NCBI GenBank assembly: GCA_025980435.1
Contig: JAICXK010000012.1
Span: 1 to 42,361 of the forward strand
From: Bryobacteraceae bacterium
Lineage (GTDB): Bacteria > Acidobacteriota > Terriglobia > Bryobacterales > Bryobacteraceae
Direction: 5' to 3'
Length of the DNA stretch: 42,361 nt
Shown: piece after piece, positions 10,159 through 16,084 of the stretch
How positions within the stretch are numbered: position 1 is the stretch's first letter
How the letters are laid out: every line of letters begins with the position of its first letter
Made by a program: the position numbers and the translations under genes
The notes under the pieces: generated by a model
Seen by the model: the letters and a program-made list of their open reading frames with translations, nothing else
Told to the model about the DNA's origin: nothing
The model's database searches: none

Positions 10159-10443
10159 ATGATCGTCGGCTATCGAGATAAGCGCACCAGGGATTTCGCC
10201 GTTGGCAGGCGAGTTAAGGCTTTCTCCGGAATTGAGCGCGCTGCACGTTTGAAGCTGGACAGGTTAGATGCCGCTACAGGACTCAAGGACCTTGGTGCTC
10301 TACCCGGTAATCGTATGGAATCGCCGGCAGGTGATCGGAAAGGACAGCACAGTATTCGCATCAACGACCAATGGCGGATTTGCTTTGAATGGCCGGACAA
10401 CGCGCCGGGACCGTCAAACGTTGAGATTGTTGATTACCATTAG
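10159..10443 (+). CDS. higB: HigB-family mRNA-interferase toxin
   Basis: The 94-residue protein is a full-length RelE/HigB-type toxin: it opens with IVGYRDKRTRDF, has the LDRLDAATGLKDLGALPGNR core, and ends with HSIRINDQWRICFEW followed by VEIVDYH, the characteristic C-terminal strand pair holding the catalytic-type Arg and His. Such toxins cleave mRNA at the ribosome. Toxin-first order followed by an HTH antitoxin is typical of the hig type. The ATG at 10159 sits at the predicted transcription start, with no room for a ribosome binding site. Six bases separate it from the antitoxin gene. Confidence 0.88.
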   Translation: MIVGYRDKRTRDFAVGRRVKAFSGIERAARLKLDRLDAATGLKDLGALPGNRMESPAGDRKGQHSIRINDQWRICFEWPDNAPGPSNVEIVDYH

Positions 10444-10449
10444 GATTTT

Positions 10450-10752
10450 ATGGCGATTACCGCAATACATCCGGGCGAACACTTGGCAGAAGAACTTAGC
10501 GAACTCGGGATGAGCGCAGCCCAGTTAGCGCGTAAACTAGATGTGCCGACGAATCGCATTACGAGTATTTTAAACGGACAGCGTGCTATCACGGGCGACA
10601 CCGCATTGCGGCTTGCGCATTTCTTCGGTACGCGCCCTGAGTTTTGGCTTAACCTCCAGAGCCTTTACGAGTTGCGTCTCGCGCAAAAGAAAGCCGGCAA
10701 ATCGATCAGCGGGCTTCCAAAGTTAAAGCGCCAGGACCGCATTCCCGTCTGA
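10450..10752 (+). CDS. higA: HigA-family antitoxin, HTH_XRE
   Basis: The 100-residue protein begins IHPGEHLAEELSELGMSAAQ, the standard opening of the HigA addiction-module antidote family, and carries an XRE-type helix-turn-helix at about 22-60 (LARKLDVPTNRITSILNGQR, GDTALRLAHFFG). FWLNLQSLYELRLA follows as in other HigA proteins. It should neutralise HigB and repress the promoter at 10118-10153 through the paired inverted repeats. It is co-transcribed with the toxin and has a normal ATG. An 80-base gap separates it from the copper/heme enzyme operon. Confidence 0.9.
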   Translation: MAITAIHPGEHLAEELSELGMSAAQLARKLDVPTNRITSILNGQRAITGDTALRLAHFFGTRPEFWLNLQSLYELRLAQKKAGKSISGLPKLKRQDRIPV

Positions 10753-10832: not shown

Positions 10833-12221
10833 ATGAGGCGCTGCGTAGCTGCTCTTCTGTTTTTCGCCTGGTGCGGCGTGACGTGCCACGCGCAAACTCC
10901 CGTCGCGGATGACAGCGTTACGTTCAATAAAAATATCGCGCCGATCCTCTATAAGAACTGCGCCGTCTGCCACCATCCCAACGACATCGCGCCGATGTCG
11001 CTCATTACCTACAAAGAAGTCCGGCCCTGGGCGGCGGCCATTCGAGAAGCCGTTGTGCAAAGGATCATGCCGCCCTGGCATGCGGACCCGCACGTTGGCG
11101 ATTTCTTGAACAATCCCAGGCTATCGGACGCAGAAATCGCCAGTATCGTGAAGTGGGTCAAGAGCGGCGGGCCTGAAGGCGATCCGAAGGACCTTCCGGC
11201 AGCACCCGCCTTTGAGACCGGATGGCACATCAAGCCTGACGTCATCATCACGATTCCCCGGATGACGGTTAAAGCCGGGAACCAGGACGACTACGAATAC
11301 ATCTACGTGCCCACCCATTTCACGGAAGACAAGTGGATTCATGCTGCCGAGGTCGTGCCCGGGGATCGGCGCGTTGTGCACCACGCAACGGTCAGCGTCG
11401 TCGACGCGAATTCCGTTCCCAAACTTCGCGCGGAACATGGCGACGTGGAGAAAGTAGATCAATACCACTTCCGAACCGGCAAGGTGAATCACATGAAACC
11501 CGATGCGCCTGTCTCGGATGATGGTTGCGTCTCCATCGGAAACGGCCCGCTGAAAGATCCGTCATCGGGAGGCGTAAATCACGTTCCGGCCATCTATCTG
11601 CCCGGGCATCTGGCCGAGGTGCGGCCCGCCGGATACGATCTCAAGATTCCCGCAGGTTCCTATCTGCAGTTTCAGATACACTACAGCAACCGCTTGGGCC
11701 AAGCCGTGACGGATCGCACGAGCATTGGCCTCGTCTTTGCGAAGAATCCCGTCACGCATGAAGTGGCTCAGTATGAAATCTGGAACAATTGGTTCCTGAT
11801 TCCGCCCAAAGACGGCAACCACAAAGTAACGTCTTGTTACACCTTGCCGAAGGACGTTCTGGCGGTTGCCTATACCGCTCACATGCATTTCCGGGGCAAA
11901 AGCATGACAACGGAGGCCGTCTATCCGGACGGCCATCACGAAGTGCTCTTCAATGTTCCCAAGTACGATTTCCGCTGGCAGGAGACTTACTTTCTGAAGC
12001 GCCAGTTCATACTGCCCAAAGGCACGAAACTCGTAACAACGGCTTACTTCGATAATTCCGCCAATAACCCGCTGAACCCCGATCCATCGAAATCGATTCG
12101 CTGGGGAGAGCCGAGCACCGAAGAAATGATGGGCTTTTGGCTGGCTTATGCGGATGTGCAGCCAATCTCGGAACATATGGAAACAGCCGCATCGCAATCA
12201 CCAGGAAAGGGGCGTAAATGA
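10833..12221 (+). CDS. Heme-c / PHM-DBH-type copper monooxygenase fusion
   Basis: A 462-residue exported protein with Sec signal (MRRCVAALLFFAWCGVTCHA). Residues about 30-112 form a c-type cytochrome domain with heme motif CAVCH (43-47). Residues about 130-445 align by eye with the ascorbate-dependent type II copper monooxygenases PHM and DBH: H183-H184 (VVHHATVSVVD) and H283 (LQFQIHYSN) correspond to the CuH ligands; H350, H352 (AHMHFRGK) and M432 (STEEMMGF, versus SSDEMC in PHM) correspond to the CuM ligands. All six copper positions are therefore present. Family members hydroxylate a C-H bond; the substrate here is unknown. The heme domain suggests electron delivery by cytochrome instead of ascorbate (inference). 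The start at 10833 is chosen for the signal peptide and GAAGG upstream; the frame is open from 10764. ATGA overlap with the next gene. Confidence 0.85.
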   Translation: MRRCVAALLFFAWCGVTCHAQTPVADDSVTFNKNIAPILYKNCAVCHHPNDIAPMSLITYKEVRPWAAAIREAVVQRIMPPWHADPHVGDFLNNPRLSDAEIASIVKWVKSGGPEGDPKDLPAAPAFETGWHIKPDVIITIPRMTVKAGNQDDYEYIYVPTHFTEDKWIHAAEVVPGDRRVVHHATVSVVDANSVPKLRAEHGDVEKVDQYHFRTGKVNHMKPDAPVSDDGCVSIGNGPLKDPSSGGVNHVPAIYLPGHLAEVRPAGYDLKIPAGSYLQFQIHYSNRLGQAVTDRTSIGLVFAKNPVTHEVAQYEIWNNWFLIPPKDGNHKVTSCYTLPKDVLAVAYTAHMHFRGKSMTTEAVYPDGHHEVLFNVPKYDFRWQETYFLKRQFILPKGTKLVTTAYFDNSANNPLNPDPSKSIRWGEPSTEEMMGFWLAYADVQPISEHMETAASQSPGKGRK

Positions 12222-13264
12222 CACCGGCATCCCGTCGCGGATTTCTTACTCGCTTTGCCACTGGATTGAGCGCGCCGCTCATTCTTGGAGCAGCCAATAA
12301 ATCAGGCAGCCGGAAGCCGATCCTCGGCTCGGGTGAGCACACCTACGAGGTCACGCACGACTGGGGCGAATTGCCGCGCGATATTCAATACGGCAACACG
12401 CATGGCGTTTGTGAAGATTCCCGCGGCCGGATCTACATCCATCACACCGTTTATGCCACCAGCGAGAAGCAGGACAGCATGGTGGTTTTTGATCATAAAG
12501 GCAAGTTTGTCAAAAGCTGGGGCCGCGAATTCAAGGGCGGAGCGCACGGTCTTTACATCCGCCGCGAAGGCAAAAACGAGTTTCTCTATCTCTGCGATAT
12601 CAAGCGGGGCGTCGTCGTGAAAACGACCCTGGACGGCGAAGAGGTGTTCACCCTCGGCTACCCCAAGGAAGCGGAACCATATTCGAAGCCGGGTCCCGAC
12701 GGCAAACAGCTGAAGTACAGCCCTACTAACCTGGCCGTCGCTCCGAACGGTGATTTCTACGTCGGCGATGGTTACGGTTCCAGTTACATCAATCAATACA
12801 ACAGCAACGGAGAGTACATCCGCACCTTCGGCGGTCCGGGCAACGCGGCGGGACAACTCCTTTGCCCTCATGGCATCATCGTAGACGCGCGCGGCAGGCA
12901 GCCGGTTCTGGTTGTAGCTGATCGCACAAACAAGAGAATCCAGCGTTTCACGCTACAGGGCGAACACATCGATTTCTTGTATGGCACGCTTGCGCCTTGC
13001 CATTTCAACATCTACAAGAATGGCGACATGGTTGTGCCCGATCTTTTCGCCCGAGTCACGCTCATGGATTCGGAAAACAAAATCATCACGAACCTGGGAG
13101 ATGATTCGCACAGCCAGTACATGGAGACGCGCAAACTGACACGGGATCACTTCAAGCCGGGCAAATTCGTCTGCCCGCATGGCGCGTGTTTCGATCACGC
13201 CGGCAACATTTTCGTCGTGGAATGGGTAGAGGTGGGCCGCGTGAGTAAACTTCGCAAGGTATAG
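12218..13264 (+). CDS. PAL-like NHL beta-propeller protein, Tat-exported
   Basis: The 348-residue protein has a Tat signal (ASRRGFLTRFATGLSAPLIL) and then a six-bladed NHL-type propeller. It resembles the peptidyl-alpha-hydroxyglycine alpha-amidating lyase (PAL) half of animal PAM: PTNLAVAPNGDFYVGDGYG, QLLCPHGIIVDARG, VVADRTNKRIQRF and KFVCPHGACFDHAGNIFV each line up with PAL segments. By that alignment H110 (GGAHGL), H218 and H321 match the zinc ligands, Y186 and R236 match the catalytic Tyr and Arg. PAL cleaves a hydroxyglycine to an amide and glyoxylate; whether this protein does so is unproven. Its ATG overlaps the stop of the PHM-like gene by 4 bases, so the two are translationally coupled. 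Alternative: a structural NHL protein with no enzyme activity. Confidence 0.8.
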   Translation: MTPASRRGFLTRFATGLSAPLILGAANKSGSRKPILGSGEHTYEVTHDWGELPRDIQYGNTHGVCEDSRGRIYIHHTVYATSEKQDSMVVFDHKGKFVKSWGREFKGGAHGLYIRREGKNEFLYLCDIKRGVVVKTTLDGEEVFTLGYPKEAEPYSKPGPDGKQLKYSPTNLAVAPNGDFYVGDGYGSSYINQYNSNGEYIRTFGGPGNAAGQLLCPHGIIVDARGRQPVLVVADRTNKRIQRFTLQGEHIDFLYGTLAPCHFNIYKNGDMVVPDLFARVTLMDSENKIITNLGDDSHSQYMETRKLTRDHFKPGKFVCPHGACFDHAGNIFVVEWVEVGRVSKLRKV

Positions 13265-14137
13265 ATGTCTGTTCGCGCGTTCAGCCGTCGCGCCTGCATC
13301 CAGATACTGGCCGGCTGCGCTTCCGCTTTTGCGCTTCAAAAGCCCCAGGACGCGCCCGCTCCTAAGGATTGGGTTTGTCCGATGGATCCCGATTACCGCT
13401 CCAGCAATCCGGGCGTGTGCCCGCGCTGCGGCATGACGCTGGTCCTCCGGGTTCCGGAGCGAATTGAATATCCGCTCCAGGTTTCGCAGTCTCCCGAGTT
13501 GCTGAAACCCGGCGACACCGTAACCCTACTGTTTCGCGTTCTGAATCCGGCGACCGGCCACACAGTCAGGCATTTCGAGCTTGTACACGAAAAGCTGATG
13601 CACCTGTTTCTGGTAAACGAAAACCTGCAATTTTTCGCGCATGTACATCCGGTCCTTCAAGCCAACGGCACGTTCGTTCTGAGTGTACGGCTGCCATATG
13701 GAGGCATGTACCGCATGCTGGCCGATTACTATCCTTCCGGCTCCGTCCCCCAACTCGCGGTCAACACGCTCTTCGTTTCGGGCGTTTGCGATCACCCTAA
13801 AATTAGTCCTTCTCTTGCTCCCTTTGCCGCGGAAAATCTCACGGCCTCACTCCGGCTCGACCCACAGGCGCCGATTGCCGGTCTGGAAACGAAACTCTTC
13901 TTCACGCTCGATCCCGCGGCCGGCTTGCAGCCCTATCTCGGCGCGTGGGGACACATGCTGGCGGTCAGCGATGATTTGATAGACCTGCTGCACTTGCATC
14001 CGTTTCTCGCCAGTGGCGGGGCGATCCAGTTCAACATCATCTTCCCGCGCAGCGGCATTTATCGAATCTGGACGCAGTTCCAGCGCGAGGGAGTGGTCAA
14101 CACCGTGATCTTCACCGTGCCTGTCAAATCGCTATAG
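13265..14137 (+). CDS. Heavy-metal-binding domain protein, probable copper handling
   Basis: The 290-residue product starts directly after the TAG of the PAL-like gene (ATG 13265). An N-terminal SRRACIQILAGC combines a twin-arginine pair with a possible lipobox (LAGC, C18), so a membrane-anchored periplasmic protein is likely. Residues 36-60 are a heavy-metal-binding domain: WVCPMDPDYRSSNPG then VCPRCGMTLV, with C38, C52, C55 and M57. The rest is beta-rich with His/Met clusters (LVHEKLMHLFLVNEN, FFAHVHP, LLHLHPF). This domain is common in copper efflux and copper chaperone proteins. The position after a six-ligand copper enzyme suggests it loads or buffers copper for it (inference). Confidence 0.75.
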   Translation: MSVRAFSRRACIQILAGCASAFALQKPQDAPAPKDWVCPMDPDYRSSNPGVCPRCGMTLVLRVPERIEYPLQVSQSPELLKPGDTVTLLFRVLNPATGHTVRHFELVHEKLMHLFLVNENLQFFAHVHPVLQANGTFVLSVRLPYGGMYRMLADYYPSGSVPQLAVNTLFVSGVCDHPKISPSLAPFAAENLTASLRLDPQAPIAGLETKLFFTLDPAAGLQPYLGAWGHMLAVSDDLIDLLHLHPFLASGGAIQFNIIFPRSGIYRIWTQFQREGVVNTVIFTVPVKSL

Positions 14138-15397: not shown

Positions 15398-16084
15398 CTA
15401 GTTTCGCGAGTTTCTCGGCACTTCCAGCGCGAACCGCACTGGCGCCGAGGATTCAATCGTCGTGCCCTTCGGCAGGGCGAGCGGTTCGCGGAAGAAGAAT
15501 ACACGGTTCCATTTCGCGTTGAATTGGTACAGCCAGACCAGCGGCTGGATTCTGCCGTCCGGCAGATGCGCCGTGATTCGAGCCGAATTTATCGTGCCTT
15601 CTGGCAGCGGCCGAAGACCGGCAAGCGCAATCGGTCTGTCGAGTGTCGCGGGCGTTGAGACCGTTTGGAAATCCCGCACCTCCGGGTCGGTCGCAGAAGT
15701 GGTTTTCGCGGCCGCTCCAGGTGGGGGGGCCGGATTGCCCTGCGGCGCTCCCCCAATCACCCAGGCGGAAATGATGATGATCTCCTCCTGTGTCAAGGCG
15801 TGATCCGGCTTCAAATCTCCAAAGCCTTTTACCGCGCCCCACGGCGGCATAGCGCGTGAAAGGACCTGCTCCTTGATATCGACCGCCCAGGGACGCACTT
15901 CCTCATACCGGGTGAGCGGAATGGACGCATCGGAACCGTGGCACGCAAGACACCGACGAACCAGGATGCCGGAGATATCGTGCGCGTACGTCAGGTTGGT
16001 GGTGATGATGTCGTGCGCGGCAGCCGAGACAGCGCAGCCCGCCGCGGCGATCATCAGGATCGCCAGTTTTACGTTCAGGACCAA
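15398..16084 (-). CDS. Exported mono-heme cytochrome c-like protein, solo copy of the fusion's heme module
   Basis: The 228-residue protein has a Sec signal (VKLAILMIAAAGCAVSAAAH) and one heme-c site, RRCLACHGSD. From there the sequence follows the heme domain of the PHM-like fusion at 10833 closely: YEEVRPWAVDIKEQVLSRAM plus PPWGAVKGFGDL here against YKEVRPWAAAIREAVVQRIM plus PPWHADPHVGDF there, then an I.I.AWV..G.PQG.P block against IVKWVKSGGPEGDP. The copper monooxygenase domain is absent; a short beta-type domain (about 140-228) replaces it. It may be an electron carrier related to the fusion. It converges with the membrane-protein gene (1-base gap) and lies just after the adenylate kinase gene. 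Confidence 0.72.
   Translation of the reverse strand: MVLNVKLAILMIAAAGCAVSAAAHDIITTNLTYAHDISGILVRRCLACHGSDASIPLTRYEEVRPWAVDIKEQVLSRAMPPWGAVKGFGDLKPDHALTQEEIIIISAWVIGGAPQGNPAPPPGAAAKTTSATDPEVRDFQTVSTPATLDRPIALAGLRPLPEGTINSARITAHLPDGRIQPLVWLYQFNAKWNRVFFFREPLALPKGTTIESSAPVRFALEVPRNSRN

Follow-up and report, generated by a model that had tools for sequence, protein, structure and literature searches.

A three-gene operon of a soil bacterium of the Bryobacteraceae appears to encode a copper monooxygenase fed by a c-type haem, the copper protein that serves it, and a distinct metallo-propeller that was recruited to, or kept in, the operon in some members of one genus; we give this reading a probability of about 55%. 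The operon lies in a stretch of 42,361 nucleotides (the window) from assembly GCA_025980435.1, contig JAICXK010000012.1 (this genome, below), and consists of the open reading frames (ORFs) ORF1, ORF2 and ORF3 (Table 1). ORF1 has the fold of the copper monooxygenases PHM and DBH, and ORF2 is a propeller that resembles PAL. The PHM fold forms the first half, and the PAL propeller the second half, of the animal peptide-amidating enzyme (PAM); both kinds of protein are known best for their part in the maturation of peptide hormones in animals and some algae. An earlier note on this DNA had described the first two proteins as neighbouring, coupled and exported, with a heavy-metal-binding protein after them. 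The three ORFs do adjoin on the + strand and are coupled, by an ATGA overlap of the ORF1 stop and the ORF2 start, with AGGAAAGGGG upstream of it, and by an ORF3 start on the base right after the ORF2 stop codon. A crude estimate for this genome puts the probability of such adjacency by chance at about 7e-5, and the arrangement recurs in two relatives. Export is likewise predicted for the three proteins, from signals that were judged by eye as Sec-type in ORF1 and twin-arginine (Tat) in ORF2 and ORF3.

ORF1 matches the Pfam family Cu2_monoox_C, and its structural model has the double-domain PHM/DBH (Pfam PF03712) fold, with a clear gap to the next-best fold in a fold search and with 15-19% structural-alignment identity to PHM/DBH. 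The copper ligands of these enzymes are five His and one Met, and all six positions that the earlier note had picked out in ORF1 are occupied as it said and are invariant in 12 aligned sequences (ORF1 and 11 relatives, to which all residue counts for ORF1 refer). Five of the six, the His residues, align with DBH by profile, two of them in a weak stretch; the sixth, M432, we take to be PHM Met314 from the fold and from our assumed numbering of that enzyme. ORF1 differs from PHM/DBH in a fused N-terminal haem-c motif, C43-x-x-C46-H47, which the earlier note did not contain, and the ORF1-family profile also matches haem-c chains, weakly (E 0.0076 and 0.016). It may also differ from PHM at the residues that anchor the peptide carboxylate, which we take to be Arg240, Asn316 and Tyr318. 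Counted from H350 and M432 by the same assumed numbering, these would fall on T348, G434 and W436, and the three columns so defined hold no Arg, no Asn and one Tyr in the 12 sequences.

The third protein, which had been called heavy-metal-binding, is supported as a candidate of that kind by its match to Pfam HMBD (PF19335; E 4.5e-09, 36.5 bits against a cutoff of 23.6). Its link to the monooxygenase was seen in a survey of 237 genomes of the window's bacterial family, in which up to 7 or 8 candidates were scored per genome and 13 genomes, the window included, carried a close ORF1 orthologue (at least 68% identity). An HMBD gene follows the PHM gene in 6 of these 13, directly in three and after the propeller in three. 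The PHM-HMBD neighbours without a propeller, in G472 (L256), G473 (L257) and G341 (L258), again have a short cytochrome gene on the opposite strand. In the other seven genomes no HMBD gene was found next to PHM, although each offers 2.6 kb or more of sequence downstream. Judging by family and by the arrangement of the genes, we infer that ORF1 would be an exported dicopper monooxygenase that hydroxylates a C-H bond with O2 on an exported or environmental substrate, with electrons drawn from its own N-terminal c-type haem domain and not from ascorbate alone, and that the HMBD protein ORF3 would handle copper for it. ORF1 and ORF3 together would be the first, and probably the older, of two metalloenzyme units that share the operon.

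The second unit would be ORF2. Pfam finds NHL repeats in it (E 1.5e-09), and in NCBIfam, which names none of the three ORFs above a cutoff, it has a sub-threshold match to ScyF (61 bits against a cutoff of 350). Relatives were collected by an ORF2-profile scan of genome contigs, which gave 163 places encoding them, located by short peptide patterns; the best 80 were kept. Residue counts refer to ORF2 with 78 relatives (set A3, 78 of the 80 loci and the window; L146 and L161, cut by contig ends, were omitted). The AlphaFold2 model, built on these 79 sequences, is a six-bladed propeller with a mean predicted local distance difference test score of 92.5. Structure prediction, which the earlier note had proposed as a check, thus gave ORF1 the expected fold and ORF2 a propeller with PAL among its best matches, but tied with others: Thin scored 30.7, PAL (3fvz) 29.9 over 268 aligned residues at 2.6 Å, and TRIM2 29.9. 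Since PAL is tied with the NHL domains of TRIM and Thin proteins, the propeller fold of ORF2 is not PAL-specific.

The residues say more than the fold. In PAL, H585, H690, H786, Y654 and R706 have known roles and Arg533 is important. H110, Y186, H218, R236 and H321 of ORF2, named in the earlier note, take the positions of the first five (rat PAL residue numbers read off the alignment to 5wm0) and are invariant throughout the 79 sequences. Two further features were absent from that note. The position of Arg533 is occupied by T77, in a column with Thr in 49 sequences, a gap in 22, Arg in 3, Gln in 3 and Glu in 2, and Arg occurs anywhere in segment 72-90 in only 13 of the 79; furthermore, Ser518 of PAL is replaced by a fourth invariant His, H62. 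H62, H110, H218 and H321 are each the second residue of a blade's first strand (61-66, 109-117, 217-223 and 320-325), and because they share this strand position they should, by symmetry, face the central channel together. ORF2 also differs from PAL in standing alone with a predicted Tat-type signal, both twin-arginine Arg being invariant in 8 aligned sequences. From the missing Arg533 equivalent and the invariant H62, ORF2 is, as judged by sequence, a sister family of PAL-like propellers and not a demonstrated PAL. The possibility that it is a generic NHL scaffold only was set aside, because the channel-type residues H62, H110, Y186, H218, R236 and H321 are invariant in 79 of 79, though it may still function as one. 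The ORF2 family occurs in Acidobacteriota, Planctomycetota, Verrucomicrobiota and Armatimonadota. Two relatives lie elsewhere, L129 (recorded as Nevskia soli, Pseudomonadota) and L165 (Acidimicrobiia), at 74% and 66% identity, which would be explained by mis-binning or horizontal transfer. We regard ORF2 as most likely a metal-dependent enzyme, exported by Tat and distantly related to PAL, which would act on the same substrate as ORF1 or a related one and would not be a peptide-amidating PAL.

The propeller and the monooxygenase are seldom neighbours. A full-length PHM lies within 3 kb of the propeller at 3 of the 80 loci, co-directional at L119 and L120 and divergent at L128 (five loci, L139, L154, L176, L187 and L195, have less than 1.5 kb upstream of the propeller ORF). 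L119 and L120 have the gene order of the window, with PHM directly upstream of the propeller and HMBD downstream. Genes of the PSCyt/PSD1 or DUF1501 types are present at no more than this distance at 17 loci, as found with PSCyt and DUF1501 profiles made from three source loci each, two of which (L121 and L123) are within the 80; Pfam bore out the gene names at L121 and L045. When all genes within 5 kb were clustered without supervision, the 80 loci yielded PSD1-type genes at 14, DUF1501-type genes at 12, PHM or short haem proteins at 5 and smaller groups, with sulfatase-like, TonB-type and oxidoreductase-like families (named by eye) at 5 loci each. The PSCyt1, PSCyt2, PSD1 and DUF1501 genes, of Acidobacteriota and Planctomycetota, thus adjoin ORF2 relatives, and PSCyt1 also brings a haem-c domain, but they are not part of the window's operon, and Pfam gives no known function for PSCyt2, PSD1 and DUF1501.

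Across the 237 family genomes, 92 have an ORF2 match at E 1e-130 or better, and 7 have both ORF1 and ORF2 against 5.0 expected, so that co-occurrence is not significant (Fisher one-sided p 0.20, two-sided 0.26). The propeller adjoins PHM in 3 of the 13 genomes with a close ORF1 orthologue, namely the window, G350 (L119) and G344 (L120), all from the window's genus, which was represented by 17 genomes in the search. G341 (L268) and G342 (L269) have the propeller with PSCyt2/PSD1- and DUF1501-type genes, and G472 and G473 have it with neither of these types. Neighbourhoods were also searched from both sides. Around 20 propellers (L042-L061, 8 of them close ORF2 relatives and the others more distant, some cut by contig ends) no PHM was found by phmmer at E 1e-10, and tblastn at E 1 gave short stretches only (best E 0.007, 32.7 bits); set A1 leaves out L049, which carries an insert. 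Around 26 PHM genes (20 relatives and 6 contigs with this genome's paralogues) there was no ORF2 relative at E 1e-10 and no propeller of the A5 type described below. A PHM-PAL pair conserved across the phylum was rejected on these searches. The earlier note had asked whether the pairing is conserved in related genomes, and non-conservation is largely what was found.

Some propellers do carry the missing Arg. Set A5 consists of seven NHL proteins of Acidobacteriota, which belong to the same fold family as ORF2 by profile (hhalign probability 100, E 3e-51). Unlike ORF2, all seven have Arg at the Arg533 position, and where ORF2 has H62 they carry Pro, Ser or Thr; hhalign agrees on the register at both, and A5 is a separate branch of the propeller tree (SH-like approximate likelihood ratio test, SH-aLRT, 99). 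One of them is a second PAL-like propeller of this genome that keeps the Arg533 position (L068 517-1587, contig C311), and no PHM was found on its 5.7 kb contig. PHM lies within a 1.5 kb flank at 1 of 30 A5 loci (L281, complete as L305). L305 5631-10093 (G259) has a pair of PAL-like propellers, one or both of which carry an Arg533-type FSRG motif, with PHM 0.9 kb on along the same strand, and L302, picked since both matches shared a contig, has a divergent pair of PHM and an A5-type propeller. Chance is a plausible cause of both pairs, because both families are present in many copies per genome.

Several observations weigh against the reading of a haem-fed monooxygenase unit joined by a separate propeller. 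The ORF1 model was built on 7 sequences, with low confidence in its haem part. The order PHM-propeller-HMBD persists in three genomes whose ORF1 copies have diverged, those of L119 and L120 sharing 78% and 73% identity with that of the window, which makes selection for the pair plausible. Neither a PHM nor a PSCyt/DUF1501 partner type was present at 60 of the 80 propeller loci. The ORF1 tree is poorly resolved, uniting the three paired copies in 0 of 200 bootstrap trees, and forcing them into one clade is not rejected (approximately unbiased test, p-AU 0.066). The propeller tree places the window, L119 and L120 together in a group of 9 rows (SH-aLRT 100), whose other members are three PSCyt/DUF1501-linked loci and three further ones; the PHM label shows no more clustering there than after shuffling, which gave a value as low in 87 of 500 cases. 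Insertion of the propeller into a PHM-HMBD operon and its loss from one would both fit.

The retained order makes joint two-step chemistry in the paired genomes possible, as it survives the divergence of ORF1. In its explicit form, ORF1 would hydroxylate a carbon next to N or O in a non-peptide substrate and ORF2 would cleave the hemiaminal or hemiacetal as PAL does, in the few paired genomes. Gene coupling and the five conserved PAL positions speak for such a cleavage, but a full-length PHM is absent from the 3 kb around the propeller at 77 of the 80 loci, adjacency is missing in 10 of the 13 genomes, no ORF2 match reaches E 1e-130 in 6 of the 13 (some of these assemblies being incomplete), and Arg533 is lost and a His gained; we consider it unlikely, if well worth keeping in mind. 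A bolder version is more speculative still: ORF2 would represent a class of its own among propeller metalloenzymes, exported by Tat and with a site of four His, Tyr and Arg. In this genus it would receive the product of the PHM-fold monooxygenase fed by c-type haem, and the two would form a periplasmic hydroxylase-lyase pair that works without ascorbate and was put together from the two folds independently of animal PAM. It is slightly more doubtful again that the genes share a neighbourhood without joint function, ORF2 being a secreted enzyme or binding propeller in its own right that was brought into the PHM-HMBD operon. The many propellers without either partner type, the PHM-HMBD pairs without a propeller in three genomes and the non-significant co-occurrence would fit this, but the ATGA overlap found here and a gene order that three diverged genomes retain do not.

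The earlier note had read the operon as a split bacterial PHM-PAL-like system, and a bacterial counterpart of PAM was not supported. A true split PAM amidating peptides with a C-terminal glycine would account for the resemblance in fold and metal ligands on both sides. Against it stand Thr77 in place of Arg533, the PHM carboxylate anchors of our assumed numbering, which were not seen in ORF1, and the rarity of the pairing across loci and genomes; PHM and propeller are not kept together as a two-enzyme system of the PAM kind would be. Peptide amidation by ORF1 and ORF2 is unlikely from their sequences, and a split PAM in this strict sense is very improbable. Among the papers listed by literature searches none was recognised as describing a bacterial PHM-PAL pair, and in the main text of PMC6529398 the strings 'bacteria' and 'prokaryot' occur 0 times.

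Table 1. Features of the operon and its flank (window positions)
Feature	Position	Strand	Remarks
ORF1 (P0001)	10833..12221	+	462 aa; mechanical ORF from 10764; predicted signal peptide, N-terminal c-type haem domain, PHM/DBH-fold copper type II monooxygenase
Haem-c motif C43-A-V-C46-H47	10959..10973	+	C43, C46, H47 invariant 12/12
H183-H184, Cu ligand positions	11379..11384	+	12/12; aligned to human DBH His-His in weak 4.9-bit stretch
H283, Cu ligand position	11679..11681	+	12/12; aligned to a DBH His by profile
H350-M-H352, Cu ligand positions	11880..11888	+	both His 12/12; aligned to DBH His-Thr-His
M432, Cu ligand position (Met)	12126..12128	+	12/12
ATGA overlap, ORF1 stop/ORF2 start	12218..12221	+	read from sequence
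ORF2 (P0002)	12218..13264	+	348 aa; predicted twin-arginine signal, six-bladed NHL propeller, PAL-like
H62 (rat PAL Ser518)	12401..12403	+	fourth invariant His; 79/79; 0/7 in set A5
T77 (PAL Arg533 position)	12446..12448	+	not Arg; register from 5wm0 alignment and hhalign
H110 (rat PAL H585)	12545..12547	+	79/79
Y186 (rat PAL Y654)	12773..12775	+	79/79
H218 (rat PAL H690)	12869..12871	+	79/79
R236 (rat PAL R706)	12923..12925	+	79/79
H321 (rat PAL H786)	13178..13180	+	79/79; equivalence by blade position and aligned end of 3fvz
ORF3 (P0003)	13265..14137	+	290 aa; predicted twin-arginine signal, HMBD domain, two His-rich (HxHP) segments
Short c-type cytochrome-like gene	15398..16084	-	related to ORF1 N-terminus, 38% to ORF1 residues 8-129

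Genes of a HigB-like toxin and an HTH (helix-turn-helix) antitoxin type lie immediately 5' of the operon (window 10159-10752). A promoter scan found 0, and a terminator scan gave a count not above that of shuffled sequence. Short cytochrome genes similar to the one downstream of the operon are present in L119, L120, L121, L123, L256, L257 and L258, on the opposite strand in related loci. Four to six consecutive PHM-like genes occur in other Acidobacteriota (L100 3793-12798, L106 3216-11524, L098 6012-13124 and L102 6666-13760). An 868-aa ORF at L128 12213-14819, perhaps a tandem PHM fusion, scores 1091 bits against the PHM profile, roughly double what is usual; set A4 uses trimmed ORFs, and half of this one.

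A bacterial PAM-like system was not borne out, and the differences of ORF1 and ORF2 from the animal proteins are well defined and open to test. Such bacterial relatives, a haem-c-fused monooxygenase and a PAL-like family with a changed site, would show which roles both folds had earlier than, or apart from, peptide amidation, and the two families would supply enzymes with which C-H hydroxylation by soil bacteria can be tested.

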